Source of the DNA: Acetobacter syzygii
GTDB lineage: Bacteria; Pseudomonadota; Alphaproteobacteria; Acetobacterales; Acetobacteraceae
Assembly (NCBI RefSeq): GCF_000964225.1
Contig: NZ_BAMZ01000027.1
Location: 1 to 64,000, forward strand
DNA length: 64,000 nucleotides
Direction of reading: 5' to 3'
Position numbers and translations under genes: made by a program. How positions within the stretch are numbered: position 1 is the stretch's first letter; each line of letters starts with the position of its first letter. The notes under the pieces were generated by a model that was not told the DNA's origin, ran no database searches, and saw only the letters and a list, made by a program, of their open reading frames with translations. Shown here piece after piece: positions 47,445 to 64,000 of this stretch.

Positions 47445-47873
47445 ATGGGTTTCCCTCTTGTAGACGCGGTCCTTGCGAATGTTCCCAGTCAATCCTCCAG
47501 TGATGCGTGTGATATTTCTGGTCTGAGAGTCGCGGTGCAGGAACCGGATCTGAAGTATAAAGAATTTGATAATCTCGCTACTCTGCCGGATGTAGAGCCG
47601 CCTGTTGGCCGGAAGGAAAAAGCTGCTCCCAAACCAGCAGTTACACCGTCTAACAAAGATGCTCTTGCGGACATATTGGCTTCGGTCGAAACAGAGCCCC
47701 CTGTAGAGCCGGAGGTTCGTCAAAAACCCGTTAATCCGCCTTTGCGAATGGCTAAACCGAGCGATGTAAAAACAAAGCCGGAACAACAGTCCTTGCGGGA
47801 CGTTTTTGCGTTTCTGGCAGGAAAGCAGGACAAGCCCCAGCCTGTTTCCAGTCTGTCTGATATTTTCCGTTAA
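47445..47873 (+). CDS. Small Pro-rich cellulose-locus protein (BcsP/BcsH-like)
   Basis: 142 residues from ATG 47445, chosen because AGGAG lies 6 bases upstream; the ATG at 47439 directly abuts that box. No signal peptide or membrane helix, so it is cytoplasmic. The middle is rich in Pro, Lys, Glu and looks disordered. Three short repeats of the form L-x-D-[IV]-[LF] stand out: ALADIL (73-78), SLRDVF (116-121) and SLSDIF (136-141). It precedes bcsQ. Proline-rich scaffold proteins BcsP and BcsH (CcpAx) occupy similar places and organise synthase rows or bind BcsD. The link is by context and composition, not proven homology. Confidence 0.6.
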   Translation: MGFPLVDAVLANVPSQSSSDACDISGLRVAVQEPDLKYKEFDNLATLPDVEPPVGRKEKAAPKPAVTPSNKDALADILASVETEPPVEPEVRQKPVNPPLRMAKPSDVKTKPEQQSLRDVFAFLAGKQDKPQPVSSLSDIFR

Positions 47874-47916
47874 GTGGTCAAATGTTCGTTCGGCACTTTA
47901 TGATAGAGTATTTTGC

Positions 47917-48678
47917 ATGCCCTTGATTTGTTGTGTTTCACCAAAAGGGGGCGTGGGTAAAACCATGATCGCGGCTAATCTGGCTGCCGGTTTGGCCAAA
48001 AACCGACACCTTGAGGTGATTGCCGTTGATCTTGACCCGCAAAATATGCTCCGTCTCCACCTTGGTGGCGATGTGGCGGATGGGCATGGTTTTGTAAAGT
48101 CGGTCGGGAATATAGAATCCTGGGGTGGCGCGCTCAAAGAAGACAGCAATAGTGGCGTGATCATCTTACCGTATGGTCAGCTTTCATCGGGGAAAAGTAT
48201 TAAAAAAGATAGTGTTATACGACAAAAGCCGGAACTGCTCTGGAAGCCGCTGGTCAGGATGGCTGCATCTCCGGGCATGGTGGTCGTGGTGGATACGCCT
48301 CCGGGGCCATCGGTTATGTTACAAGCTATTTTGCCCCATGTGGATTTGCTACTGACTGTTCTGGCCGCAGATGCCGCATCGGCTGTTCTGTATTCCAATA
48401 TTGCGACTGGAAAAATCTATTCGGAAGTGCGTAATGTACGCCGAGGTTATGTTTTAAATCAGTTTGATCCCATGACCCGACTGGGGCGTATTATCTGCTC
48501 TGGGCTGGCAGAAAAAATTGGTGATTCTCTGTTTGGCATCGTGCATCGTGATGAGTATGTGGGAGAGGCGCTGGCCATGCAGCAGCCTGTTGCAGACTAT
48601 GCTCCCCTCTCACGTGCTGCCATTGATCTGAATAACCTTTCTGATCGTGTCAGTCGTTATCTGGAATCACTTACATGA
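47917..48678 (+). CDS. bcsQ: Cellulose biosynthesis ParA/MinD-type ATPase BcsQ
   Basis: 253 residues from ATG 47917 (MPLICCVSPKGGVGKT). The deviant Walker A motif KGGVGKT lies at about residues 10-16, VDLDPQN near 42 and the Walker B-like VVVDTPPGPS near 125. BcsQ proteins localise and assist the Bcs complex at the inner membrane or pole. It has no C-terminal membrane-targeting helix that I can clearly see. The stop overlaps the bcsA start by four bases (ATGA), so the two are co-translated. Confidence 0.87.
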   Translation: MPLICCVSPKGGVGKTMIAANLAAGLAKNRHLEVIAVDLDPQNMLRLHLGGDVADGHGFVKSVGNIESWGGALKEDSNSGVIILPYGQLSSGKSIKKDSVIRQKPELLWKPLVRMAASPGMVVVVDTPPGPSVMLQAILPHVDLLLTVLAADAASAVLYSNIATGKIYSEVRNVRRGYVLNQFDPMTRLGRIICSGLAEKIGDSLFGIVHRDEYVGEALAMQQPVADYAPLSRAAIDLNNLSDRVSRYLESLT

Positions 48679-51257
48679 AATTGTCTGATCGGCTGAACAG
48701 TCTGTTCCGTGTTGATCAGAATGTTCATAAAATTGTTCCTCTTTTTATTCTATTTTTATCTGTCATCAGTTTTTTTATTGTTACCCTGTCTTTTCTGTCT
48801 GCTGGCGGGCAGCTCATTGTTGGCGTTGCAGGGATTGTTGTTTTTTTTCTTCTTAATCGCCGTAAGGATGAGACAGCAACACTGTATTTGAAGATTCTTT
48901 CACTCGCTGTGTCATCTCGCTATCTGCTCTGGCGCATGATTGACACGCTGGTTTTTCAAACAACCTTTCAGGCTGTTCTGGGCATCATTCTTATTCTGGC
49001 AGAAGCTTATGCTTTTATGATGCTGCTGTTGATTTATTTTCAAACAGTGCATCCGCTGGAAAGAAAACCCGCTCCCTTGCCAGATAATTCCGACGACTGG
49101 CCAACGGTTGATGTTTACATTCCAACGTATAACGAAGATCTGAGTATTGTAAGGGTTACGGCACTTGCCTGTGCATCCATGGATTGGCCACCTGATAAGC
49201 TGAACGTTTTTATTCTGGATGACGGTCACCGTGTGGAGTTCCAGCATTTTGCGGAGGCCGCAGGTATTGGCTACATTAGCCGAGCCGATAATGCCCATGC
49301 CAAAGCCGGGAATCTGAACCACGCTCTCCAGCTGACAGATGGAGAACTGATTGCCATTTTTGACTGTGATCACGTTCCGTGCCGGGCGTTTTTACAAACG
49401 ACGCTGGGGTGGTTTGTGGCAGATTCAAAAATCGCTCTGTTACAAACGCCACATCATTTTTATTCGCCCGATCCGTTTCAGAGAAATCTGGCGAATGGTA
49501 TGCGGGTTCCTCCCGAAGGCAACAGCTTTTATGGCCTGCTGCAACCGGGCAATGACTTCTGGAATGCGTCATTTTTCTGTGGTTCATGTGCGGTTATTCG
49601 TCGCACCGCCCTTTTGGAAGTTGGTGGGATTGCAACGGAGACCGTAACAGAGGATGCGCACACAGCTCTCAAGCTGCAACGGCGTGGCTGGTCCACTGCG
49701 TATCTGAGCCTGCCTCTGGCTGCGGGGCTGGCAACGGAGCGGCTGATCCTGCATATTGGTCAAAGAATGCGCTGGGCGCGTGGAATGATCCAGATTTTAC
49801 GTACCGATAACCCATTCTCAGGGCCGGGATTAAGACTTCCGCAAAGGATCTGCTATTTTTCGGCTATGGCCGGATTTTTGTTTGCAATCCCCCGGTTGGT
49901 TTTTTTAACGTCTCCCCTATGTTTTCTGGTTTTTAACCAGACGCTTATTGCGGCATCGCCCATGGCGCTCTGTGCCTATGTCATACCGCACTTTTTCCAC
50001 TGTATCTGCACATCGGCCCGTATGAATGGGAGCTGGCGCTATTCATTCTGGGGTGAAATATACGAAACAACGCTGGCAACCTTTTTGGTGCGCGTCACAC
50101 TGGTAACAATCCTTTTTCCCAAACTGGGCAAGTTTAACGTTACGGACAAAGGTGGAACAATCAAACAGGCTTATCTGGACTGGCAGGCTGTTTATCCCAA
50201 CGTTATTCTAAGCGGGTTTTTGTTTATGGGCATGTTATACGGCTTTTACCGGCTGTTCATGTTCCATAACTCACAGGTTGTCTTTAATGCGCTGTGGCTG
50301 AACGAAGTCTGGATTGCCATTAGTCTTCTTACGCTTCTGCTGGCTATTGCTGTGGGGCATGAATCCCGTCAGGTCCGTGGTAAAGCGCGTATTCAGGTCC
50401 GGCTGCCAGTAACGCTGCGTTCCGAAGGAGGGCGGCTGCTTCCAACCCAGATTATGGATGTGTCCACAGGGGGCTGCCAGGTTGAAATTGCCGAAAGCAC
50501 GGTCGATGAGTGGCAAAAAGGTCAGATCGTCCATGTCCTGACGGAAGAGGGGCGACTGAAGGGCGAGATTGTATGGGTTGGCAAGCGTTCAATCGGGCTG
50601 GATTGGCGTTATGATTCCCTGAGGCATGAGGCTGAGGTCGTCCGGTTTGTTTTTGGGCGGGCAGATGCTTGGGTGGACTGGGGGCGTTACCCGCCAGACC
50701 GGCCATTGCGGAGCCTGTGGCTTGCATTAACCAGTATAACAAGCCTGTTCCGGTTTGAGAAAAATCCTGGTGCAGTCAACCAAAAACTTCCACCAGTAAA
50801 ACCGATGGCTCCGCCGCGTAGTCTGCCTGGCGGCAAAAAAAAGCAGGAAAGAAACGCCGTGATTGTCGCTCCCAAGAAAAAAGCAGCGACATTCTGTTTT
50901 TTTCTCCTTGGTATCATGCTTCCCGCCTCTTCCTGGGCACAGCAGGCTGCGGATGCTTCGCCCGTGCCGCAACCGGCTGCTCAAGCCGTCGCAGCACCTC
51001 CAGCGGGTGTTCCACCACAGGATGGAGAGCCGCCACTCCCCACATCCGATGCAACGGCTCCAGCGACACCAGACCAGCCCTCGCAAACGCAGGGCCTAAC
51101 CCTTGGTACGCCAATAACAGATGCCGCACCGGCTATGGTTGGGGTGCATAAAAAAAGCTGGACCCTTAAAGAGCTGGGCGCAGGAGATACTCTGATGATG
51201 ACGCCTTTTGCGTCTATTCAGGGTTTGTCATTCGGGCTGCCAAAGGCGAGCTTGTGA
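48675..51257 (+). CDS. bcsA: Cellulose synthase catalytic subunit BcsA, running on into BcsB N-terminus
   Basis: The GT2 synthase makes beta-1,4-glucan from UDP-glucose. Motifs: DDG at 182-184, DCDH at 230-233 (first D and second D of the DxD site), TED at 325-327 and QRMRW at 363-367. Membrane helices flank the GT domain. The PilZ c-di-GMP site is intact: R568xxxR572 and D595xS597xxG599. Normal BcsA would end near residue 720. Here the frame continues through a second hydrophobic signal-like segment (about 733-752), a Pro/Ala-rich linker and a BcsB-like start (WTLKELG to SIQGLSFGLP), then ends KASL at 51257. That tail belongs to BcsB, so bcsA and bcsB were one fused gene or are joined by frameshifting. 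Confidence 0.93.
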   Translation: MKLSDRLNSLFRVDQNVHKIVPLFILFLSVISFFIVTLSFLSAGGQLIVGVAGIVVFFLLNRRKDETATLYLKILSLAVSSRYLLWRMIDTLVFQTTFQAVLGIILILAEAYAFMMLLLIYFQTVHPLERKPAPLPDNSDDWPTVDVYIPTYNEDLSIVRVTALACASMDWPPDKLNVFILDDGHRVEFQHFAEAAGIGYISRADNAHAKAGNLNHALQLTDGELIAIFDCDHVPCRAFLQTTLGWFVADSKIALLQTPHHFYSPDPFQRNLANGMRVPPEGNSFYGLLQPGNDFWNASFFCGSCAVIRRTALLEVGGIATETVTEDAHTALKLQRRGWSTAYLSLPLAAGLATERLILHIGQRMRWARGMIQILRTDNPFSGPGLRLPQRICYFSAMAGFLFAIPRLVFLTSPLCFLVFNQTLIAASPMALCAYVIPHFFHCICTSARMNGSWRYSFWGEIYETTLATFLVRVTLVTILFPKLGKFNVTDKGGTIKQAYLDWQAVYPNVILSGFLFMGMLYGFYRLFMFHNSQVVFNALWLNEVWIAISLLTLLLAIAVGHESRQVRGKARIQVRLPVTLRSEGGRLLPTQIMDVSTGGCQVEIAESTVDEWQKGQIVHVLTEEGRLKGEIVWVGKRSIGLDWRYDSLRHEAEVVRFVFGRADAWVDWGRYPPDRPLRSLWLALTSITSLFRFEKNPGAVNQKLPPVKPMAPPRSLPGGKKKQERNAVIVAPKKKAATFCFFLLGIMLPASSWAQQAADASPVPQPAAQAVAAPPAGVPPQDGEPPLPTSDATAPATPDQPSQTQGLTLGTPITDAAPAMVGVHKKSWTLKELGAGDTLMMTPFASIQGLSFGLPKASL
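50845..50861 (+). promoter_or_regulatory. Internal ribosome binding site and GTG start for BcsB within the bcsA frame
   Basis: AGGAAAG (50845-50851) is followed after 7 bases by GTG at 50859-50861, in frame with bcsA (codon 729). Translation from here would begin MIVAPKKKAATFCFFLLGIM, a well-formed Sec signal peptide ending near SSWAQ. It could supply a free, exported BcsB, provided the frameshift at 51243-51245 is crossed. Confidence 0.45.
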
Positions 51258-53314
51258 CCGATGCAGAGCTTGTGCTCTCTGGTGCATTGTCTCCCGCTTT
51301 GTTGCCGAATGTGAGCAGCATTACGATCCGGCTGAACAACCAGTACGTGGGAACAATACCGGTAACGCCGGGTAAATCTGCATTCGGTCCAATAAAATTT
51401 GCTGTTAACCCATTCTTTTTTCTTTCAAAGAATGTTGTCAACTTTACCTTTGCAGGCCAGTACACAGCCACATGTGGGAACGAGATAAGCCCCGTTCTAT
51501 GGGGGCAAATTTCCGGGCAGTCACAACTGTCCATTACAACGGCCCCATTGCCACCCAAGCGTTATTTGTCTGCTCTGCCTTCGCCTTTTTTGGATACAGA
51601 TGCGGTTGACCGCAGTGTTGTACCGTTTGTGTTGCCTGAGCAGGTTGCATCGGGGAATGTTAATGGCCGTATTCTGCTTAAATCTGCGGGTATCGTAGCA
51701 TCGTGGTTTGGCAAACAGGCGGATATCCACCACGTAACCTTCCCTGTTTCGTATCATGTAGCGGAAACAGGGAATGCTGTTGTGGTCGGGACAGCCGCAA
51801 ACTTGCCAGATAATCTGGGAAAAAGCCTGACCATAGCCGGACCTCTTGTTGCGGAGCTTGCTAATCCATCCGACAGTAATGGAACCTTGCTGGTTATTAC
51901 CGGACGCACTGCAACGGAAGTTCTGCAAGCAGCGAACACATTGGCTTACACTTCCAACAGTTTTGGCGATCTGTCTCAGGTTGGGGGAGCAGACATATCG
52001 CTTTCTCCTCGTCAGCCATACGATGCGCCAGCTTTTTTGCCAACGGATAGGGTTGTACGGTTTGGGGAGCTGGTTAGCCAGAGCGCTCTAACCGGGCATG
52101 GGTATGTGCCAGGAACACTGGCCATTCCTTTCCGCATGGCACCAGATTTATATACGTGGCGCGGGCGACCGTTTTCTTCGAGCTTCAGCTTTCATCCACC
52201 CTTGGCGGATAATCTGGATCTCAAGCATTCGCGTGTGGATGTGAGTTTGAACGGGATTTATCTCAGCAGTTTTCCCTGGTCACAATATGAAAAATTACCT
52301 GCGTGGCTGAGGTATTTCCTGCCTGAGCGTTCGACAGTTCAGAAACATCACGTCGAATTGCCAGTCTGGGCTGTTTATGGCCAGAACGAACTGGATTTTT
52401 ATTTTGATGGACGCCCCATGGCGCGGCGGGACTGTAGCGCCATGGCACAGGATATTTCTTTGGAGCTGGACCCGGATTCCACACTGGATATGCGGCGTGC
52501 TTACCATCTGGCGGTTATGCCTAATCTGGCACTTTTTGCTAATAGTGGCTTTCCGTTTACCAGAATGGCGGATTTGTCCGAAACAGCGATTGTTCTGCCA
52601 GACCATGCTGGAACAGGTGTGCTCACAACGTATCTGGATGTTGCCGGGCTGTTAGGGTCTTATACGTGGCTCCCTATATCTGGTGTGGAAGTGGTTTCTG
52701 TTCATGATGTGGCAACCGTCAAGGACAGGGACATTATGATGATTGGTCTGGCAGCGGGTGGTATGCAAACGCCCAGCCAGGCAGCAGAACTGCTCAAAGG
52801 GTCGCCTTACCAGATTGAAGGGGGGCGGCTCAGGTTAAAAGAGCGCAGCGTACTCGATGGTATCCGTTATATGTTTGCGGATAACGCCTTACAGGGTGCA
52901 CAGACTGTAACTTTTCAGGGGAGTGTTTCCCTGAGTGGTGGTGGTGCCCTTATTGGTACGGAGTCCCCCTTTGCAAAAGGACGCTCGGTTGTTGTTCTTG
53001 TTGCAGGAATGCCGCAAGGGCTGGATAATGTGATTAACACCATTGAAAACCCTACGCTTGAAAGAGGGATTCAAGGTGATCTTACTTTTGTTTCCGGGCA
53101 TAAAACCATTGCTTCGCGGAGTGGAACAACGTTTACAGTTGGTAATGCTCCATTCTGGATTTGGAGTGACTGGTATTTTAGTGAACATCCCTGGCGTATT
53201 CTTATGCTGGCAGGCTTAGGTATTCTGGGTAGCGGAAGTGTATTGCGAAAAATGTTGGCAGCCCGGGCCGCCAAACGGCGTTCATATTTGAAGAAGAATG
53301 AAGGGGGCGAGTAG
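51254..53314 (+). CDS. bcsB: Cellulose synthase subunit BcsB, main body (frame-shifted from its N-terminus)
   Basis: This frame is open from 51170 to 53314. The first in-frame start is GTG 51254, overlapping the bcsA stop (GTGA), but it lacks a signal peptide and the first BcsB strands, which are encoded upstream in the bcsA frame. The body matches BcsB: ALSPALLPNVSSITIRLNNQYVG, KSAGIVASWFGKQADI, RKPYDAPAF-like RQPYDAPAFLPTDR, repeated carbohydrate-binding and flavodoxin-like parts, and a C-terminal membrane anchor (WRILMLAGLGILGSG). It is periplasmic and guides the glucan from BcsA. Joining LPK (51240-51245) to GELVTDAE in the -1 frame gives an uninterrupted BcsB when compared with the second copy at 59640. 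Confidence 0.88.
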   Translation: MTDAELVLSGALSPALLPNVSSITIRLNNQYVGTIPVTPGKSAFGPIKFAVNPFFFLSKNVVNFTFAGQYTATCGNEISPVLWGQISGQSQLSITTAPLPPKRYLSALPSPFLDTDAVDRSVVPFVLPEQVASGNVNGRILLKSAGIVASWFGKQADIHHVTFPVSYHVAETGNAVVVGTAANLPDNLGKSLTIAGPLVAELANPSDSNGTLLVITGRTATEVLQAANTLAYTSNSFGDLSQVGGADISLSPRQPYDAPAFLPTDRVVRFGELVSQSALTGHGYVPGTLAIPFRMAPDLYTWRGRPFSSSFSFHPPLADNLDLKHSRVDVSLNGIYLSSFPWSQYEKLPAWLRYFLPERSTVQKHHVELPVWAVYGQNELDFYFDGRPMARRDCSAMAQDISLELDPDSTLDMRRAYHLAVMPNLALFANSGFPFTRMADLSETAIVLPDHAGTGVLTTYLDVAGLLGSYTWLPISGVEVVSVHDVATVKDRDIMMIGLAAGGMQTPSQAAELLKGSPYQIEGGRLRLKERSVLDGIRYMFADNALQGAQTVTFQGSVSLSGGGALIGTESPFAKGRSVVVLVAGMPQGLDNVINTIENPTLERGIQGDLTFVSGHKTIASRSGTTFTVGNAPFWIWSDWYFSEHPWRILMLAGLGILGSGSVLRKMLAARAAKRRSYLKKNEGGE

Positions 53315-53322
53315 TCACCAGA

Positions 53323-56300
53323 ATGAGGCGTTTAGCAGCGATAAAACTTGGGGTGACGGGGGTTGCGGCATTTGTCGTGCCTGTTGCTGTCTATGCCCAG
53401 TCGCTGGAAACGGCTCCCTCTTCTGCGGTTGATGTGGGGACTCTGCTGCTCCAGAAGGCACAATACTGGCACGATCATTACGAAATGGATCAGGCATGGC
53501 AGACTCTGGCTCAGGCTGCTCATCTGGCGCCTGATAATCCGCATGTACTGGAACTGCAGGGCTTGTGGGCGCATGAGGGGGGGGATGGTGCCGCTGCCGA
53601 TGCCGCCCTGCAAACATTGACCCGGCGCTTTCCCGATGCGCCAGAAACACAAAGGTTGCAGGCAGCTCTTGCGCATGGGCATACGCAGGAAGTGGATGTT
53701 TCAAGCGCACGTAGTCTGGCCAAGGCGGGGGAGACAAGTGCTGCCGCCGCTGCGTACCGCAAGCTTTTTCCTAACGGTCCTCCACCAGCCTATGCTGTTG
53801 AATATTACGAAACCATGGCAGGTGCCGTTGGGTATAGGGATAAGGGGCGGCTTGGCCTTAAGCAGTTACTAGAACAGAATCCCAATAATATTGATGCACA
53901 AATAGCCTACGCACAGGTTTTGACCTGGCGACCCCTGACCCGGTTGGACGGGCTTCAGCGTTTACAGCAACTGGCGAATATTAAAGGTTTAACGGCTACG
54001 CAGCGGGATTCCATTGATCATGCGTGGAGTGAAACACTGCATTGGCTGGCGCCCACGCCGGAAAGTGTGCCAGCTTATGACGCATGGCTAAAAGTGCACC
54101 CACAGGATACGGAGATGCAGGCGGTTAGAGATCGCGCGATGGCAGCAGAGCCGGAGAGCGCCTTGATTAATCGTACGCAGGGATATCAGGCACTTTCCAA
54201 CAATAATCTGCCTGATGCTGACAAATATTTTTCACAGGCGGTGGTTGATCGTCCTACCGATGTCGATGCCCTTGTGGGGCTTGGACTTGTTCGTATGCGG
54301 CAAAGTCGTATGCAGGAAGCCATCGATTTGTTTGAAAAAGCTACTAAAATTGACCCTCAGGGTTCAAGCCGATGGGCTTCGGCTTTGGCCGCGGCCAAAG
54401 TTGCGGGAACCTATGCGCGCATAAGGCCGCTTATGCAGGCAGGCAATTACGAAGCTGCTAAAAACGAAATTCAGCAGGCTTTAGCACTTGATCCCAAACA
54501 GGCAGGGCTTATTGCGCTCTCTGGCGATGTGGCAGTTAAAGAAAAAAATCCGCGTGAGGCAGAAGACCTTTACAGGCAGGCTCTTGCAATAGAACCGGAA
54601 AACGCAACGGCCTTGCAAGGGTTATATAGTCTGCTGCGAACATCTGGCAAAACAGCAGAACTTGCCGATGTTGAACGTCGGCTGCTTAAGATTTCGCCTA
54701 ATTTTGGCAAGCAGATTGCGGTAGAAGATCTAAGACGGCAGATCGCGACGACCGCTAATCTGGACGAGAAAATAAACCTGCTGCGCAAAGCTGTTGGGGA
54801 AGAGCCGAGTAACCCATGGTTGCGGCTCAATCTGGCGCAATCGCTGGTAACCGCCGGGAATCAGGGGGAAGCTGCCGAGGTTATGGACCCGATTTTATTG
54901 GCGTCCAGGGCCGGTTCTCTGGCTAATGTGCAGGCTGGCATTTATTACGCCAATCAAGTTCACGATACCGCTTTGCTGGAGCGGTTGTTTAAAGTTTTGC
55001 CCCGTCAGGGTATGACAGCAGACATACGGCAGATTTCTGATCGTTTGAAATTTCAAAAACTGGTTGCTGCCGCACCAGATGATCCACAGGACGCCAGAAT
55101 ATATTTTAACCGTATTGCCCAGCAGGATAGCGAGGATACAAGCGGTGTTCATGGCCAGCTTATGGGGCAGGCACTTTTAAAACGTGGTGATGCAGCCGGA
55201 GCTGTTGGGCTGTTGACCGAAATGCTCCGGCGTGCCCGGGCGCCATCGGCACAGCAACGCATTGCTTACGCCGGGCTTATGCTGGAAGCGCAAAAACCAG
55301 CAGCTGCACGCCGGATTGTTGCATCCCTTGAAGGGGAGCAATTAACAGATGAACAGCAGACTTTTTTGAAAGGCATCAAGGACGGGCTTGCCATTCAGGC
55401 ATCCGATAGGCTGAATGATGAAGGCCGGCGTGCAGAAGCCTATGATGCTCTGGCCCCGGCTTTGCAAACGGGCCAGTCGCCCGGTCAGCTTGCTCTCTCC
55501 CGTCTGTATCAGTCAGATCATAATGTCAAAAAAGCCCTGTCTATTACACGGGCTGTTCTGAATGAGAATCCGGATGATCTGGATGCGCGGTTGCAGGCCA
55601 TTCGCCTGAGTGTTGAGCTTCATGATATTGGGCAGGCCAGGCAGGATCTGGATATGATGCGTGAACGTGCACCGTCCGATCCGCGTACATGGGTTGCAGG
55701 CTCGGTGGTTGCTAAAGCTGCAGGCAACTGGACCGAAGCCCTGAATAATCTGGCTCAGGCCCGTATGCTGCGGCTGGAAAGTGTGGGTACGCCCGTGGAG
55801 GTGGAAGATGGTGAAAATCCGTTCCGCCATGGGGTTTCTCAGGCTGGTGCTACCAAAACCACAGACCCGATGCTGGCTTCGATTGACCGGGAAATTGAGG
55901 TAACCGGTAAGGCTTATGCACCCTATCTGGATGTTGGGCCGGTGTTTAATACCCGCAGCGGATCGGGGCTTGGCAAACTGGCCAATGTGGAAGTGCCAAT
56001 TCTGGGGTCCATGCAGGTGGGGGAAGGACGCCTGAATGCTTCACTCACCCCGGTCTCTCTTTCCGCCGGGGATGCGCCATCGCAATATTCAGGACATGAT
56101 GCAGCGGGTGTGGCGCTGAATGCCGGATATGAGTGGAACTGGCTTAAAGGAGATGTGGGTACAACCCCGCTTGGTTTTGCTACTACGAATGTTGTCGCCG
56201 GTGTGCAGTTTTTCCCACAGATTACGGATAATCTGCATCTGAGCTTTTTAGCGGAGCGGCGTGCCTTAACGGATAGTGTGGTTGCCTATTCTGGCATGAA

Positions 56301-56922
56301 AAACAAAACCACTGGCAAAACATGGGGTGGCGTGATCAAAAATCATGTACACTTGCAACTAGCTTATGATGGCACGGGTTTTACCATTTATGGTGGTGGT
56401 GGGTATGCCTACCTGGATGGTCAGAACACCCGGTCGAACGAGGAGTATGAGGCCGGTGTGGGCGGTATGGTTACCGTGTACAAAAACCATAATCATGAAG
56501 TGCAGATTGGTTCAAACCTGACGTGGTTCCGGTTTGATAATAACCAGTATGTTTTTCCTGATCATACCTACCCGAGTAACAGCTATGGCTATGGCGGGTA
56601 TTTCTCGCCCCAGTCTTTCTTTTCTGTCACTGTGCCCGTTACTTATACCGGTCAGATTGATAAGTGGATGTGGGATGTTGGTGGTCAGTTGGGTTACCAG
56701 AACTATCACTCACAGGCACTGCTTAATCTGGATGATACGTCCCAGCCTATTGGGGCGGCGCGTCCCACCAATCACCTGATTGGTGGCGCACATGGTAATT
56801 TCTCTTATCAGGTCTCTCCCGCTTTGCGTGTAGGTGCGAACTTCCAGTTCCAGAAGGCAGGGCCATGGAACCAGTTTATTGCCGGGCTGGCAGCACGCTA
56901 CACTTTTCTGGATACCCAATGA
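53323..56922 (+). CDS. bcsC: Cellulose export protein BcsC (TPR + outer-membrane barrel)
   Basis: 1199 residues. Signal peptide (cleavage near VYAQ, residue 26), then about 800 residues of TPR-type helical repeats (for example HYEMDQAWQTLAQAAHLAPDNP and GNYEAAKNEIQQALALDPKQ). The C-terminal 330 residues (from about 865) form the BCSC_C beta-barrel, with alternating aromatic strands and a final YTFLDTQ. It carries cellulose across the periplasm and outer membrane. It starts 9 bases after bcsB and its stop overlaps bcsD. Length is close to that known for Komagataeibacter BcsC. Confidence 0.94.
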   Translation: MRRLAAIKLGVTGVAAFVVPVAVYAQSLETAPSSAVDVGTLLLQKAQYWHDHYEMDQAWQTLAQAAHLAPDNPHVLELQGLWAHEGGDGAAADAALQTLTRRFPDAPETQRLQAALAHGHTQEVDVSSARSLAKAGETSAAAAAYRKLFPNGPPPAYAVEYYETMAGAVGYRDKGRLGLKQLLEQNPNNIDAQIAYAQVLTWRPLTRLDGLQRLQQLANIKGLTATQRDSIDHAWSETLHWLAPTPESVPAYDAWLKVHPQDTEMQAVRDRAMAAEPESALINRTQGYQALSNNNLPDADKYFSQAVVDRPTDVDALVGLGLVRMRQSRMQEAIDLFEKATKIDPQGSSRWASALAAAKVAGTYARIRPLMQAGNYEAAKNEIQQALALDPKQAGLIALSGDVAVKEKNPREAEDLYRQALAIEPENATALQGLYSLLRTSGKTAELADVERRLLKISPNFGKQIAVEDLRRQIATTANLDEKINLLRKAVGEEPSNPWLRLNLAQSLVTAGNQGEAAEVMDPILLASRAGSLANVQAGIYYANQVHDTALLERLFKVLPRQGMTADIRQISDRLKFQKLVAAAPDDPQDARIYFNRIAQQDSEDTSGVHGQLMGQALLKRGDAAGAVGLLTEMLRRARAPSAQQRIAYAGLMLEAQKPAAARRIVASLEGEQLTDEQQTFLKGIKDGLAIQASDRLNDEGRRAEAYDALAPALQTGQSPGQLALSRLYQSDHNVKKALSITRAVLNENPDDLDARLQAIRLSVELHDIGQARQDLDMMRERAPSDPRTWVAGSVVAKAAGNWTEALNNLAQARMLRLESVGTPVEVEDGENPFRHGVSQAGATKTTDPMLASIDREIEVTGKAYAPYLDVGPVFNTRSGSGLGKLANVEVPILGSMQVGEGRLNASLTPVSLSAGDAPSQYSGHDAAGVALNAGYEWNWLKGDVGTTPLGFATTNVVAGVQFFPQITDNLHLSFLAERRALTDSVVAYSGMKNKTTGKTWGGVIKNHVHLQLAYDGTGFTIYGGGGYAYLDGQNTRSNEEYEAGVGGMVTVYKNHNHEVQIGSNLTWFRFDNNQYVFPDHTYPSNSYGYGGYFSPQSFFSVTVPVTYTGQIDKWMWDVGGQLGYQNYHSQALLNLDDTSQPIGAARPTNHLIGGAHGNFSYQVSPALRVGANFQFQKAGPWNQFIAGLAARYTFLDTQ

Positions 56923-57353
56923 AAGTTATCGGAATGTCACTGTTTTTGCACGAGCTGGCCCGTAGTTTTGATGCGCAGGTGGGAAGTGTAGGCCGCGACA
57001 GGTTCTTGCAGGATGTGGGGCGCCAGATGGCGGCCCGTCTGGGGCTGCCTCCATGCCAGACGCTTGAGATGCTGGAAATGGAGATGAACGCGGCTCTCGC
57101 TCTTCTGGAGTGGGGGCACGTTACTCTGGCGGTTGATACTTTGGATAAAAAGCTTGTGCTCCGGCACGGGGGACTGCCTCTTGTTGGCAGTATGGGAGAC
57201 CCGCCGGGTTGGTGGCTGGTGCCGGCATTGGCTGGTCTTTATAGTGCATGGTTGGAACAGCAGCCGGATTCTCTTTCGGATGCACGCATGAACTGGTCCG
57301 TGGAGAAAAATTCAGAAGCGACCCATGTCGTTGTGTTGACTTATGGACATTAG
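56919..57353 (+). CDS. bcsD: Cellulose crystallisation subunit BcsD
   Basis: 144 residues from ATG 56919, overlapping the bcsC stop (ATGA). The sequence fits BcsD: SLFLHELARSFDAQVG, RFLQDVGRQMAARLGLPPC, LEMEMNAALALLEWGHVTL, GSMGDPPGWWLVPALAGLYSAWL. BcsD forms octamers that help pack glucan chains into crystalline ribbons and is typical of acetic acid bacterial and other type I loci. No signal peptide is seen. This supports the view that the locus makes structured cellulose. Confidence 0.9.
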   Translation: MKVIGMSLFLHELARSFDAQVGSVGRDRFLQDVGRQMAARLGLPPCQTLEMLEMEMNAALALLEWGHVTLAVDTLDKKLVLRHGGLPLVGSMGDPPGWWLVPALAGLYSAWLEQQPDSLSDARMNWSVEKNSEATHVVVLTYGH

Positions 57354-57397: not shown

Positions 57398-58045
57398 ATG
57401 CATCCTTTGCTTGCTGGTCTTACAATTCTTATGATCGGGGATAGCCACCTGACGCATAAGAACACTCTTGTTGCCTCTTTGCCAGAAGCGTTTGTTGCGC
57501 AGGGTGCCAAGGTCGTAACCTATGGTTTGTGTTCGTCCAAACCGGAAGACTGGGTGGATGAAAAACCCCTGAATGCGTGTGGTTACACAAAACGGATTGG
57601 CACCGAACGCATTAATGTCTCCATGGACAAGAACGATGCTCCTCCGAACATTCAGACACTGATGCAGCAATGGCATCCGGATGCTGTTGTTGTGGTCTTT
57701 GGTGATGCCATGGCGGGGTATAGCCAGCCAAAAATGCCAACAGACTGGATTAAGGATCAGGTTCATGCTCTGGTGGAAAATATAGGGTCCACCAAATGCG
57801 TGTGGATTGGCCCAACCTGGGGGCACTACAACCCGCGTTACGGTAAAACAGATGCGCGTACCGTTGAACTGGCCAACCTGCTGAACAAGGAAGTCCAGCC
57901 CTGCCATTATGTGGATTCAACCAAGCTGTTGCAGTCCAAGGATGTGAGCACGGAAGATGGTCTGCACCTGACAACAGAAGATTATACAAAGTGGAGCAAG
58001 GCAATCGTACAGAATGTAGAGCCTATGCTGGAAAAAGGTCAGTAA
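57398..58045 (+). CDS. bcsX: BcsX-type SGNH/GDSL-like protein (first copy)
   Basis: 215 residues. The N-terminus is LLAGLTILMIGDSHLTHK with the GDSH serine motif of SGNH hydrolases. The C-terminal STEDGLHLTTEDY gives the D-x-x-H pair. The block III region reads VVVVFGDAMAGY with no Asn. Related bcsX genes are found in Komagataeibacter type II loci beside bcsY and are thought to help acylate cellulose. It is clearly paralogous to the gene at 62383. There is a good GGGAAGGG box upstream. Location is uncertain; the hydrophobic N-terminus could be the first beta strand, not a signal. Confidence 0.75.
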   Translation: MHPLLAGLTILMIGDSHLTHKNTLVASLPEAFVAQGAKVVTYGLCSSKPEDWVDEKPLNACGYTKRIGTERINVSMDKNDAPPNIQTLMQQWHPDAVVVVFGDAMAGYSQPKMPTDWIKDQVHALVENIGSTKCVWIGPTWGHYNPRYGKTDARTVELANLLNKEVQPCHYVDSTKLLQSKDVSTEDGLHLTTEDYTKWSKAIVQNVEPMLEKGQ

Positions 58046-58071
58046 CACCAATAATGCGAGGTATTAAAACA

Positions 58072-59169
58072 ATGTACGGCAAACAGGCTGAAAATAACCA
58101 TTCAGGCATTGGTCTGTCGCGCCGTACTTTGTTGTGGTCTGCGGCCATGTCCTCTGTATTGGTGCAAAAAGGCATGGCGCAGTCTGTGGATGAGTGGGGC
58201 TGGTATACTTCGCACTTTTTGCGTGATGATGGTCGAATTGTAGATAATGGCAATGGCTCCCAGTCCCATACCGAAGGGCAGGGGTATGGGATGCTGTTTG
58301 CTCAGGCTTATGATGACAAAAAAGCATTTGAAAAAATATTTGCCTGGACCGAAAATAATCTAAAATTACCCGATAGTGCCCTGCACGCGTGGCATTATTT
58401 GCCTGATACATCCCCCCATGTGCCAGATCGCAATAATGCAACGGATGGTGATTTGCTGATTGCTCTGGCACTGGCTTTTGCTGGTTACCGCTGGCAGAAA
58501 TCTGAATATTTGAATTCTGCTCGTGCTATTTACAAAGATGTTCGCAAGCGGCTTGTCCAGAAGGTGGCAGGTAAACGGGTTCTTTTGCCGGGTTACATTG
58601 GTTTTACAAATCCGGATTCCGTTACAATCAATTTATCTTATTACGTCATGCCGTCCTTAATTCTGGCTACAGGGCTGGATAATGCAGAGGTCTGGCGCTC
58701 ATTGATTAAAGATGGTCTGGCGCTAATACGGAGCGGGCGTTTTGGCCGCTGGAATCTGCCACCAGACTGGCTGCAAATTTCATCGCATACAGGAGCGGTT
58801 TCTATTGCTCCTCAATTCCCGCCTCGTTTTTCGTACGATGCCGTTCGCGTTCCCCTGTATCTGGCGTGGGCCGGGCAGTTAGGTGGAGAGCTGATGGCCG
58901 GATTTGATAATTACTGGACGGCATGGCCCGCAGGTTCACTGCCCGCATGGGTTGACCTGAAAACAGGAGAACGTTCACCCTATAATGCCCCTCCCGGATT
59001 TTATGACATTGGGGGGGCATGTGGGTTTGGCACTATGGCGGCAACCATGCCGCCGGTTCAGATGAACGATAATTATTATTCTTCTTCTCTGGCGTTGTTG
59101 TCGAGTCTGGTTAAACGTCAGTTTGGCGCAGATATTATGGCTGCGCAGTTTGGTCGCGGGAAATGGTAA
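58072..59169 (+). CDS. Endo-1,4-beta-glucanase, glycosyl hydrolase family 8 (CMCax/BcsZ)
   Basis: 365 residues from ATG 58072 (GAGG 9 bases upstream; ATG 58054 also in frame). The N-terminus holds LSRRTLLWSAAM, a twin-arginine-like signal. The mature enzyme has GH8 landmarks: SHTEGQGYGMLFA (catalytic Glu), DRNNATDGDLLIALAL, INLSYYVMPSLI and PPRFSYDAVRVPLYLAWAG (catalytic Asp region). In Komagataeibacter, CMCax lies upstream of bcsAB and is needed for normal ribbons; here it lies downstream of bcsD and bcsX. It trims tangled glucan chains outside the cytoplasm. Confidence 0.92.
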   Translation: MYGKQAENNHSGIGLSRRTLLWSAAMSSVLVQKGMAQSVDEWGWYTSHFLRDDGRIVDNGNGSQSHTEGQGYGMLFAQAYDDKKAFEKIFAWTENNLKLPDSALHAWHYLPDTSPHVPDRNNATDGDLLIALALAFAGYRWQKSEYLNSARAIYKDVRKRLVQKVAGKRVLLPGYIGFTNPDSVTINLSYYVMPSLILATGLDNAEVWRSLIKDGLALIRSGRFGRWNLPPDWLQISSHTGAVSIAPQFPPRFSYDAVRVPLYLAWAGQLGGELMAGFDNYWTAWPAGSLPAWVDLKTGERSPYNAPPGFYDIGGACGFGTMAATMPPVQMNDNYYSSSLALLSSLVKRQFGADIMAAQFGRGKW

Positions 59170-59639: not shown

Positions 59640-62273
59640 TTGAGAGAAAGACCGTTCGTGTTCAAATTCTGTTCCCGTGTGATCTGGTCTGTCAGCGCTT
59701 CCGGTGTGGCCAGTTGGGTGTTGCTGACTGGGTGTTCTGCTGTTGCATTGGGGGCTACACCACAAAGCTCTGCACAGTATGAGGTGCCAGAGCGGCCTAG
59801 CCCATTTTTGCCCCCATCGGACGTATCGCTTAATGCTCACGCACGGGCATCTATGCCGTTGCCAGCATCCGGTGGACCAACAGGTACAGCAGGTTCTGGC
59901 AATGTTGCCCCCCCATCTGACCTGCCACCTCCAAGCGCTCCAGCGTCGGATGTTATGTTGGGCCCGAGTGGGACTGCTGCCTATCCCCCGTCAGATTCCG
60001 CATTGCCAGCGCAGGGGAACCCTCAGCCTGCAACGCCTTCAAACGGTCCTTCATATATAGGTGGGGATTCTGGCTATAATTTGGCAACGGCAAATTCATC
60101 GTCAGCCAATGTAGCCCAGCCAGAAATTATACGAACTCTTACCCTGCGTCAGTTGGGGCTCGCGTCTCCCATGACCCTGCGAGGATTTTCGCCTTTGCAG
60201 GGCGTTGATATTCCTATTCCAGCAGACGAAATTGTGACGCGTGCGCAGATTGTTATTGATGGTGCCATGTCACCTTCTTTGCTGCCGGAAGCGAGTAGTC
60301 TGACATTAACACTCAATGAACAGTACGTGGGTACTGTTCTGGTTGATCTTAAAAATTCGCGTTTTGGTCCGCTTGTTTTTGATATTGATCCCATTTTTTT
60401 TACGCGCCTCAATCATCTGAACTTTCAGTTTGCGGGAGAATATCGGCGCGACTGTAATGATATGCATAATGGCGTGTTGTGGGCGCGGGTTTCCAACCTG
60501 TCCAAGGTCATTATTGCTACGGTCAAATTGCCGCCGGTTCGTAAACTCTCTTATTTACCTATGCCATTTTTTGACCCGAATATGCGTGAGGTCTTGAAAG
60601 TTCCTTTTGTTTTCCCTCGTTCCAGTGGGCAGGGAGACCTTAAGGCAGCGGGTATTGTGGCATCGTGGTTTGGTAAGCTGGCGGATTTCCGTGGAACGTC
60701 TTTCCCCGTTTCCACCGCGTTTCCGGCAATCGGGAATGCCGTGGAAATTGGGGAGAATATTCCACTCGACCGCAACGGTACACTCCCTTCTGGCCCAACG
60801 TTGTTTGAGATCGCCAATCCCAATGACCGGAATGGTACGGTGTTGGTTGTCACTGGCCAGAACCATAAAGAAGTTGAAATTGCGGCGCGTGTTCTTGCAT
60901 TTTCGTCTGATACATTAGGAGACGTGCCGTTCAAGGTGGTTTCGGACGTCACTTTGGCGCCCCGCAAACCTTACGATGCCCCTGCTTTTGTACCAACGGA
61001 TCGACCCGTCAAATTTGGCGAGCTGATGTCTGCCATGGATTTGCAGCAGCAGGGTGGTGCTCCTTTGGGTATTAATGTTCCATTCCGCATTCCTCCTGAT
61101 CTGTATCGGTGGAAGCAGCATGGCTTTCCGCTCAAAATTCAGGCCAGAACCCCGGTTGCCGCAGCTTTTGAGCATGAAGGTGCGCATCTGGATGTGCTTG
61201 TCAATAATGCCTATGTGCAGAGCTTCCCGTTATTTTCAGATGTATTTTGGAAAAAGGTTGAAGGGCATCTGCCGGGTCATCAGAATGGGTTGATGACGTT
61301 TGATGCGGCTCTTCCACCATGGTTGCTTTTTGGTGGTCGCAACCAGTTGGATCTGAGCTTTAATGTTCTGCCAATCGACCGTGGTGCCTGTCGGCGTACG
61401 AGTGATGATTTTATTGCTGAGGTCGATTCAACCTCTACGTTTGATTTTCGTAAAAGCTATCATTACGCCACATTGCCAGACCTATCGTATTTTGCAGGCT
61501 CTGCTTTTCCATTTTCCAGAATGGCAGATTATTCCCAGACGGCGGTTGTTCTGCCAGCACAGCCTGATCCGGGTGTTAGCACCGCTTTTCTTAACCTGAT
61601 GGGCTTTTTGGGTGGGGCAACACAATATCCTGTCGTTGGGATCGATGTTGTGTCCAGCAGCGATCTGGGTGGATTATCGTCGTCCAAGGATATTATTGTG
61701 CTCTCCACGCTGGACCAGCTTGGAGCGGCAAAAAGTCTGCTGTCTCGTTCTGCTTATGAGATTAATGGACAGACAATCCGGTTGGGACAAAAAACCCTGC
61801 TCGATGGTCTGTGGTATTTGTTCCAGGACAGGGATAATGCCGGGCAGCATAATAATGTTGAATCGGTTTTGAATGCACCAATTGTTAACGCATCGCTCCT
61901 GATCGGTGGTGAATCGCCGTACACCAACCATCGTTCTGTTGTCGCGCTTCTGGCAGATCGCTCAGACCTGCTCCCGCAAATGGTTTCATCTTTGCTGGAC
62001 AGGCAGAAACTGTCCGCTGTCCAGGGTGATCTGGTGATAAAAAATGGTGATGTCTTCACTAATTACCGTAATACGCGCCGTTATACGGTTGGGTCATTGC
62101 CGTTGTGGATCCGCCTTGAAGTCATGCTTGAGGAGCACGTGGTCCTTGTTATTCTTGCCAGTCTGTTTGGAGCCGGGTTGCTGGCAGTTGGCACGGCCAG
62201 GTGGTTGCGGGCTTACGCACAACGCCGGTTAAAGCGGAAATTACCCGGCGAGGACGACCCGATTGATACGTAA
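59640..62273 (+). CDS. Second BcsB cellulose synthase subunit
   Basis: 877 residues from TTG 59640, or GTG 59658 (six codons later). A hydrophobic signal ends in LLTGCSAVALGA, offering both a lipobox-like LTGC and a Sec cleavage site. After a Pro/Ser-rich linker of about 110 residues comes a full BcsB: LTLRQLGLASPMTLRG, DIPIPADEIVTRAQIVI, NEQYVGTVLVD, AAGIVASWFGKLADFRG, RKPYDAPAFVPTDRPVKFGEL and a C-terminal membrane anchor with a basic tail. It is a diverged paralogue of the BcsB at 51254 and, unlike it, intact. No bcsA accompanies it in the window. Confidence 0.9.
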   Translation: MRERPFVFKFCSRVIWSVSASGVASWVLLTGCSAVALGATPQSSAQYEVPERPSPFLPPSDVSLNAHARASMPLPASGGPTGTAGSGNVAPPSDLPPPSAPASDVMLGPSGTAAYPPSDSALPAQGNPQPATPSNGPSYIGGDSGYNLATANSSSANVAQPEIIRTLTLRQLGLASPMTLRGFSPLQGVDIPIPADEIVTRAQIVIDGAMSPSLLPEASSLTLTLNEQYVGTVLVDLKNSRFGPLVFDIDPIFFTRLNHLNFQFAGEYRRDCNDMHNGVLWARVSNLSKVIIATVKLPPVRKLSYLPMPFFDPNMREVLKVPFVFPRSSGQGDLKAAGIVASWFGKLADFRGTSFPVSTAFPAIGNAVEIGENIPLDRNGTLPSGPTLFEIANPNDRNGTVLVVTGQNHKEVEIAARVLAFSSDTLGDVPFKVVSDVTLAPRKPYDAPAFVPTDRPVKFGELMSAMDLQQQGGAPLGINVPFRIPPDLYRWKQHGFPLKIQARTPVAAAFEHEGAHLDVLVNNAYVQSFPLFSDVFWKKVEGHLPGHQNGLMTFDAALPPWLLFGGRNQLDLSFNVLPIDRGACRRTSDDFIAEVDSTSTFDFRKSYHYATLPDLSYFAGSAFPFSRMADYSQTAVVLPAQPDPGVSTAFLNLMGFLGGATQYPVVGIDVVSSSDLGGLSSSKDIIVLSTLDQLGAAKSLLSRSAYEINGQTIRLGQKTLLDGLWYLFQDRDNAGQHNNVESVLNAPIVNASLLIGGESPYTNHRSVVALLADRSDLLPQMVSSLLDRQKLSAVQGDLVIKNGDVFTNYRNTRRYTVGSLPLWIRLEVMLEEHVVLVILASLFGAGLLAVGTARWLRAYAQRRLKRKLPGEDDPIDT

Positions 62274-62382: not shown

Positions 62383-63033
62383 ATGAGCGCACTTTTAGCT
62401 GGACTGACATTGCTGATTATTGGCGATAGCCATGTCACGTTTAAGGATTCCTTGCTAACAATCCTGCCCGAAGCCTACACACGGGCGGGCGCAAAGGTTG
62501 TGACCTATGGTGTCTGTTCTTCCACGGCAGCAGACTGGGTTGTGCCTAACCCCAATAATGGGTGTGGTGCAGCGCAACGTGTGGGCGATGCGCCTTTGAC
62601 ACCTCCCAACATGACGCCCACGTCCCCCCCGCCCATTACCGCGTTAATTGAGCAATGGCACCCGGATGTTGTGATGGTGGTGTTGGGCGATACCATGGCA
62701 GCTTATGGGCAGAGCGAAATTTCCAGGAACTGGGCGGATGAGCAGGTTAAAACCCTGACCATGACCATTGGCAAAACAGCCTGCATATGGGTGGGTCCAA
62801 CATGGGGTGAATATAGCCCCCGTTATGGAAAAACCGATAAACGGGCGCAGGAAATGGCAGATTTTCTGAAAGATGAGGTCGCCCCATGCACCTATATTGA
62901 TGGCACAAAGCTGATGCAGCCGGGCAGCCCCAAAACAATTGATGGCGTGCACCTGACACCAGCGAGCTACAAGGTCTGGGGTGCAGGCATTCTGCAGCAG
63001 ACAATGCCTATCTTGGAAAAAATTCATAAATAA
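62383..63033 (+). CDS. bcsX: BcsX-type SGNH/GDSL-like protein (second copy)
   Basis: 216 residues, similar along its whole length to the product at 57398: LLAGLTLLIIGDSHVTFKD, GAKVVTYGVCSS, WHPDVVMVVLGDTMAAYGQ, WVGPTWGEYSPRYGKTDKR and TIDGVHLTPASYK. GDSH and the DGVH pair are present, while the expected Asn of block III is again replaced in LGDTMA. It precedes a BcsY-type acyltransferase, as in Komagataeibacter bcsX-bcsY, which suggests a shared role in substituting cellulose. Confidence 0.8.
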   Translation: MSALLAGLTLLIIGDSHVTFKDSLLTILPEAYTRAGAKVVTYGVCSSTAADWVVPNPNNGCGAAQRVGDAPLTPPNMTPTSPPPITALIEQWHPDVVMVVLGDTMAAYGQSEISRNWADEQVKTLTMTIGKTACIWVGPTWGEYSPRYGKTDKRAQEMADFLKDEVAPCTYIDGTKLMQPGSPKTIDGVHLTPASYKVWGAGILQQTMPILEKIHK

Positions 63034-63107
63034 TAATTTGTTATCGTCTTCTCATTAGGCGTTTTTATTGTTCCTGCTCTGGCTATAGAATTGCGGTGGT
63101 TAAGGTC

Positions 63108-64000
63108 ATGTCGCTTACTGTTGTGCAACAAACATGGATAGACAAGCTCAAAGCGGAGTTTTTTCCGCTCAATCGGCGGCGTGATGTTGACGGTTTGCGT
63201 GGTCTGGCTGTTTTGCTTGTTATGATTTTTCATGCAGGGTGGTTAAGTGGTGGGTTTATAGGGGTCGATATTTTTATTGTTATCTCTGGCTACTTTATGG
63301 GGCGGTCTGCCTTTATGCAGCACCCATTTCGTCCGGAGCGTTTTGTTTTAAGGCGTCTTTACAGGCTTGTGCCCGCCTTGCTGGTTATGATCCTGCTGGT
63401 TTGCGCCAGTATGCTCTGGTGGGTCTTGCGGAGTGATCGGGCGGATATTGCGCAAAATGGTGCTTCTGCTCTGGTTTATCTGTCAAACATATGGGCCAGT
63501 GGCCATGTCGGGTATTTTGAGGGGCAGAGTATTGCTTACCCCTTCCTGCATACGTGGTCCCTTTCCCTGGAAATGCAGTTCTACCTGATCATTTTTCTGA
63601 TTGCGCTTTTTCTGTCTGCCCTGCGTTACAGGCAGGCTGTATTGTACGTGGTTATGGCAGCATCTTTTGCTTATAGCCTCATGGCCTACCATTCAGGTGA
63701 TCAGTCGGCTTATTACAGTATTTTTGCACGCCTTTGGGAGTTCTGTCTGGGCACAGTGATCTGGGTGTTGCCTGCTTTGCCGCAATCTCTGTTGTTGTCA
63801 GGGATTTGTTACGCGTTGGCTGTCATGACGCTTTTGCTGTGCGGAGTGTTTTATACCCTTACCAATGCCTGTCCGTCTTATATGGCTATTATTCCATGTG
63901 TTGCGACCATGCTGATTATTATGCAGCCACAGGCCGTAACCCGCAGGTTGCTGGAACCTCTGTCGTCTGTTGGGGTTATTTCTTACTCGCTCTACCTGTG
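63108..64000 (+). CDS. bcsY: BcsY-type acyltransferase (family 3), partial at window end
   Basis: The frame opens at ATG 63108 and is open to the end of the window (about 297 codons). The start of the acyltransferase 3 (OafA/YrhL) domain is clear: RRRDVDGLRGLAVLLVMIFHAGW, GGFIGVDIFIVISGYFMG and FRPERFVLRRLYRLVPALL, then repeated membrane helices and the conserved HTWSLSLEMQFYLI. Members acylate sugars across the inner membrane. Being 74 bases after bcsX2 it fits BcsY, proposed to acylate cellulose. The 3' end is outside the window. Confidence 0.85.
   Translation, partial: MSLTVVQQTWIDKLKAEFFPLNRRRDVDGLRGLAVLLVMIFHAGWLSGGFIGVDIFIVISGYFMGRSAFMQHPFRPERFVLRRLYRLVPALLVMILLVCASMLWWVLRSDRADIAQNGASALVYLSNIWASGHVGYFEGQSIAYPFLHTWSLSLEMQFYLIIFLIALFLSALRYRQAVLYVVMAASFAYSLMAYHSGDQSAYYSIFARLWEFCLGTVIWVLPALPQSLLLSGICYALAVMTLLLCGVFYTLTNACPSYMAIIPCVATMLIIMQPQAVTRRLLEPLSSVGVISYSLYL

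Follow-up and report, generated by a model that had tools for sequence, protein, structure and literature searches.

Loss of cellulose production through frame breaks in bcs genes has been reported repeatedly in Komagataeibacter, in some cases with revertants, and the same set of reports describes cellulose-negative mutants that arise under agitation (PMC7347698, PMC8855687, PMC6528568, PMC13068021). One such case is K. medellinensis NBRC 3288, which is described as cellulose-negative and as carrying a frameshift in bcsBI with a 17-bp deletion (PMC7347698). In accounts of gene arrangement, bcsA and bcsB are given as lying apart in K. xylinus (PMC6528568), and the fused AcsAB product of G. hansenii is described as being processed into two proteins (PMC4877109).

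The locus studied here (48675-53314) lies in a 64,000-nucleotide window, by which we mean the whole stretch of DNA that was analysed, from a draft genome of 2.68 Mb in 94 contigs (G000) that groups with Acetobacter. It shares with the fused AcsAB/BcsAB of Gluconacetobacter/Komagataeibacter hansenii the ancestral frame running from BcsA through a signal peptide and linker into BcsB, but in the window it is interrupted downstream of the signal peptide. The 860-residue ORF encodes the BcsA catalytic and PilZ domains (TIGR03030, 827.8 bits against a cut-off of 699.1), continues without interruption through a stretch that by eye resembles the BcsB signal peptide and a Pro/Ala-rich linker, and takes in the first BcsB residues before ending ...FGLPKASL at a TGA stop (51255-51257). 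The remainder of BcsB is encoded in the -1 frame, which is open for 714 codons with zero stops (51170-53314), as compared with 24 and 34 stops in the other two frames of 51255-53310. Its translation matches PF03170 over profile positions 28-606 of 606 (E 3.1e-139) and aligns, starting at query residue 25, to solved BcsB chains, presumably those of E. coli. The BcsA and BcsB domains are thus divided between two frames, and these ORFs and the PF03170 match bear out the initial annotation, which had placed the start of BcsB in a 0 frame closing at 51257 and the rest of it in a -1 frame open from 51170.

Table 1. Features of the two cellulose synthase operons; positions are those of the window and, beyond 64,000, of the same contig.
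Feature	Position	Strand	Basis or remark
BcsQ-like ATPase, upstream	47806..48678	+	PF06564, E 4.3e-29
Broken bcsAB, bcsA1 part	48675..51257	+	860-aa ORF; Pfam Glycos_transf_2 and PilZ; TIGR03030
Signal-peptide-like stretch of BcsB in the bcsA frame, KKKAATFCFFLLGIMLPASSWA	50874..50939	+	recognised by eye from the translation, without a predictor
BcsB1 remainder, -1 frame	51170..53314	+	PF03170; first start codon GTG 51254
Frame-break site, CCA AAG in frame 0	51240..51245	+	codon and DNA alignment with DsW_060 (G023/L003)
Candidate restart site	51242..51257	+	by eye; SD-like AAAGG 51242-51246, GTG 51254-51256 overlapping the TGA stop (GTGA)
bcsC1, intact	53323..56922	+	PF05420; 1,199 aa, same length in G023
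bcsD, intact	56865..57353	+	PF03500
GDSL/SGNH-like protein, BcsX-like	57398..58045	+	PF00657, weak: E 2.9e-4, 21.5 bits against a cut-off of 23.6
bcsZ endoglucanase (GH8)	57991..59169	+	PF01270
bcsB2, unfused, own N-terminus	59640..62273	+	first gene seen of second operon; PF03170, E 1e-151, profile positions 5-606
Second short SGNH-like protein	62383..63033	+	by eye, likeness to 57398-58045
Acyltransferase, BcsY-like, extends past window end	63096..64000	+	PF01757, E 4.4e-23
bcsC2	contig 64171-68184		beyond window
GDSL protein, second operon	contig 68259-69896		beyond window
bcsA2, unfused, last gene	contig 69991-72087		beyond window

A scan of contigs in the named collection returned two loci, those of A. 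okinawensis DsW_060 (L003, 88%) and JCM 25146 (L004, 85%). In DsW_060 (G023), a single BcsAB ORF of 1,568 residues with 87-88% amino acid identity runs across the break point and its junction reads ...FGLPKGELVTDAE..., so that the join of LPK to GELVTDAE proposed in the initial annotation is the exact unbroken sequence of this relative. DNA alignment places one additional base in DsW_060 within 51240-51245. The length difference sits just 5' of an AAAGGC common to both sequences, which does not support the earlier suggestion that a G was lost from an AAAGGG run; the putative loss can be placed no more closely than within these six positions. The bcsAB gene of JCM 25146 (G022) is also in one frame at the break site and is broken elsewhere; the G022 rows of the junction alignment (L004, L007, L019 and L051) were read from the best match in a shifted frame, and the frame through its junction was taken from separate readings of the locus.

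Matches were found in 9 of 49 genomes in the genus and in 131 of 347 in the family, the window's own genome included in both counts. When the best-scoring family loci were fetched, 24 of the 29 besides the window's own carried both parts in one frame that stays open for 1,200 residues or more. The remaining five, with frames of 840-856 residues, all belong to one genus (g60), which we take to be Komagataeibacter-like, and in each of them bcsA stops beside the ATG of bcsB, ahead of the whole signal peptide. The window and g60 therefore both use two frames, but g60 is split at the gene boundary with a start codon of its own and the window inside BcsB, where the first available start, GTG 51254, follows the signal peptide instead of preceding it. 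Fused genes are common across the family: by our own count, 128 of the 150 matches listed show an open frame of 1,200 residues or longer; the 22 shorter ones comprise two from the window itself, the five from g60 and 15 others (about 700-910 residues) that could represent stand-alone bcsB genes or frames cut off where a contig ends. None of the other loci whose junction was read places the signal peptide in one frame and the body in a different one. An ancestrally split gene is rejected, given that DsW_060 and most of the family loci that were fetched are fused and that g60 is split elsewhere. On these alignments, the window's bcsAB descends from a fused gene and its frame break is private, because DsW_060 and 24 of 29 loci are fused and the g60 genes part before the signal peptide; and because fused relatives read at the junction keep the frame open, the break is more than chance. 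The single frame change interrupting a fused BcsAB, as initially annotated, is supported by the comparison of codon frames in relatives that had been proposed alongside it, with the junctions of the fused relatives reading in one frame and the window's not.

No decay is visible in the BcsB body. In pairwise comparison with DsW_060, dN/dS was 0.053 for the BcsB body and 0.058 for BcsA residues 1-700, and elsewhere 0.158 (signal peptide and linker), 0.094 (BcsC), 0.111 (BcsQ-like gene) and 0.106 (a neighbouring gene), all of them rough ratios since synonymous distances of 0.96-1.49 are near saturation. When changes in the BcsB body were polarised with a further genome (G024), 21 amino acid and 61 synonymous changes fell on the window's branch and 20 and 88 on that of DsW_060; the excess of amino acid changes on the window's branch was not significant (Fisher p 0.29). 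Had the body been free to drift from the moment of the break, the break could account for no more than about 6-10% of the branch. Since constraint on the BcsB body matches that on BcsA, a null could only be a young one, and an old pseudogene is ruled out by the dN/dS values and branch counts together. The locus has the form of a recent loss-of-function allele, a private break in otherwise preserved sequence, in a comparison that includes a single strain of this species. An undecayed body implies that the break is recent, that it is an assembly error or that the frame is somehow read through.

An error would leave just such an undecayed downstream frame, the genome is a draft of 94 contigs, and drafts of close relatives can be rich in breaks: the yardstick draft of JCM 25146 (L051, 1-16001) has five in 16 kb, of which bcsAB holds three and bcsC and bcsB2 one each. 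We nonetheless regard it as unlikely, if far from negligible, that the fused bcsAB of the strain is intact and that the deposited contig is one base short. The runs at the break are no longer than three A and two C, with no long homopolymer, and breaks are rare along the contig. Comparing 104 kb of the window's contig with 100 kb of that of DsW_060 (ORFs of at least 150 residues, overlaps kept), 112 of 146 DsW_060 ORFs were matched at 60% identity or more and six were flagged, among which bcsAB was the sole clear mid-gene break. The same held between near-whole contigs of the two genomes, which are collinear at the DNA level over roughly the first 96 kb: using non-overlapping ORFs of at least 100 residues and at least 60% identity, 89 of 161 DsW_060 ORFs were matched and six flagged, bcsAB again being the sole clear mid-gene break. 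Of the other five, one was the shadow of a 298-residue gene intact in both genomes and four lacked an end part. In the reverse direction, 4 of 98 matched G000 ORFs were flagged, one of which (91804-92406) matched two DsW_060 frames. The DNA alignment of the two contigs contains 255 gaps not divisible by three, 176 of them touching ORFs of more than 500 bases, but many of these are neighbouring cancelling pairs or lie at gene ends, and the gap list alone proves no low error rate. Because other breaks are few in this genome, a real mutation is favoured, and we infer that the base is truly missing in the cell; one isolated assembly error would be compatible with the contig data despite the low density of breaks. 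That none of the other matched ORFs, 89 in all, has a clear mid-gene break speaks against an error-riddled assembly.

Several observations made along the way concern frame-break counts more generally. The breaks in JCM 25146 are probably assembly errors, which makes that draft a poor base for pseudogene calls. At contig positions 75820-76986, the long forward ORF is a shadow of the intact 298-residue gene on the other strand, which by eye resembles ferredoxin-NADP reductase, and is a trap for such counts. At about 86500-86620, a minus-strand ORF ends earlier than in DsW_060, near a one-base gap, and a small C-terminal frame difference is possible there.

Reading through the break would call for a -1 slip at A_AAG (51242-51245), as the initial annotation had suggested, at which a lysine tRNA in the A site could re-pair on AAA and enough BcsAB would be made for function. 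Preservation of the BcsB frame is the main point in favour of such slippage, although a recent break or an error explains it equally well. A_AAG is described as the most slip-prone of sixteen tetramers when combined with a strong pseudoknot in E. coli, where the six best gave 0.26-5.6%, and E. coli tetramer constructs lacking a stimulator averaged 0.147% against a background of 0.112% (PMC4066793). At the join in the window, however, the slippery sequence is a lone tetramer in the context G_CCA_AAG, not the heptamer C_CCA_AAG, and the P-site codon cannot re-pair. Four folds at and after the site were no better than shuffled sequences (z -0.01 to -0.86, in a model that leaves pseudoknots aside), no clear SD-like stretch was seen upstream by eye, and xxA_AAG is commonplace: among the 134 ORFs of 150 residues or more on the same contig stretch, 79 contain it, 136 times in total. 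Neither a conserved slip site nor a conserved frame arrangement was found in relatives; the fused ones that were read run in a single frame, for which slippage is not required. Functional slippage is therefore, in our assessment, very unlikely, and slippage at the level of transcription is unlikely because the run comprises only three A. The resemblance to programmed -1 frameshifting on A_AAG of the insertion sequence type goes as far as the shared tetramer; unlike those systems, the window has no detected stimulator or conservation, and its relatives read unbroken.

Translation might instead restart at GTG 51254 to give a leaderless cytoplasmic BcsB1 core with some role. This codon shares bases with the TGA stop (GTGA) and, judged by eye, has an SD-like AAAGG seven bases upstream. 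DsW_060 carries AAAGGCGAG as well as a GTG in the corresponding position within its reading frame, and both the SD-like AAAGG and the GTG probably predate the break. BcsB works in the periplasm. The restart product would be devoid of the signal peptide and the first residues of the domain and should not reach that compartment, and function would not be restored; because the BcsB product is leaderless, a GTGA restart should be no rescue, and we find this reading hardly credible. It is also highly improbable that the break is fixed in the species and that low-level slippage at A_AAG together with the GTGA restart sets a small output of BcsAB beside an excess of BcsA. If true, this combination would make a recoded cellulose synthase and would fit the undecayed BcsB frame; a limited literature search, aimed at papers that treat bcsB, cellulose synthase and ribosomal frameshifting together, brought no recoded cellulose synthase to light.

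A recent private frameshift null of the first operon is thus the reading that we hold to be probable. Under it, an ancestrally fused bcsAB would have stood in a type-I-like operon (bcsQ-like, bcsAB, C, D, SGNH-like, Z) of an Acetobacter near A. okinawensis, and one base would recently have been lost within 51240-51245, privately to this genome among those seen, so that the frame changes once roughly 30 residues of the Pfam BcsB domain have been read. Translation would then yield BcsA with a BcsB-derived tail ending LPKASL, and as the BcsB body would not be exported, the first synthase should be inactive. The signal peptide and BcsB body lie in different frames, which supports the initial annotation in its expectation that exported BcsB1 is not made if there is no slippage.

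The second operon remains and may still make a cellulose-type glucan. It runs bcsB2, SGNH-like gene, acyltransferase, bcsC2, GDSL gene and bcsA2, and its BcsB2 and BcsA2 are 40% and 45% identical to their counterparts in the first operon. The protein encoded at 62383-63033 had no match in Pfam or NCBIfam. The initial annotation had considered BcsB2 as a stand-in for BcsB1, a proposal that sits poorly with its place at the head of this operon: with BcsA2 and BcsC2 of its own nearby, BcsB2 belongs to the second operon. The operon resembles the type II bcs operon, for which bcsX and bcsY are described (PMC6528568, PMC8855687), but here the gene order differs and BcsA and BcsB stand apart. BcsA2- and BcsB2-like genes occur within about 10 kb on one contig in seven genomes of the genus besides the window's (G022, G023, G024, G028, G030, G045 and G048), and G012 has BcsB only. 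In G028 (L013/L018), whose genome is 86% complete, the BcsB2-like gene was read in two frames, as query pieces 13-192 and 190-683.

If the break is an error, the database record needs correction. If it is real, a further acetic acid bacterium, here an Acetobacter, would have lost a cellulose synthase by a small indel, and the strain would be a natural test of what the acyltransferase-linked second operon puts out alone. Its closest described counterpart in this respect is NBRC 3288: both have a small indel in the type I bcsB of an acetic acid bacterium, but the window concerns another genus, another site and a fused gene. If real, the case is ordinary in kind, one more bcs frame break of the type known from acetic acid bacteria.
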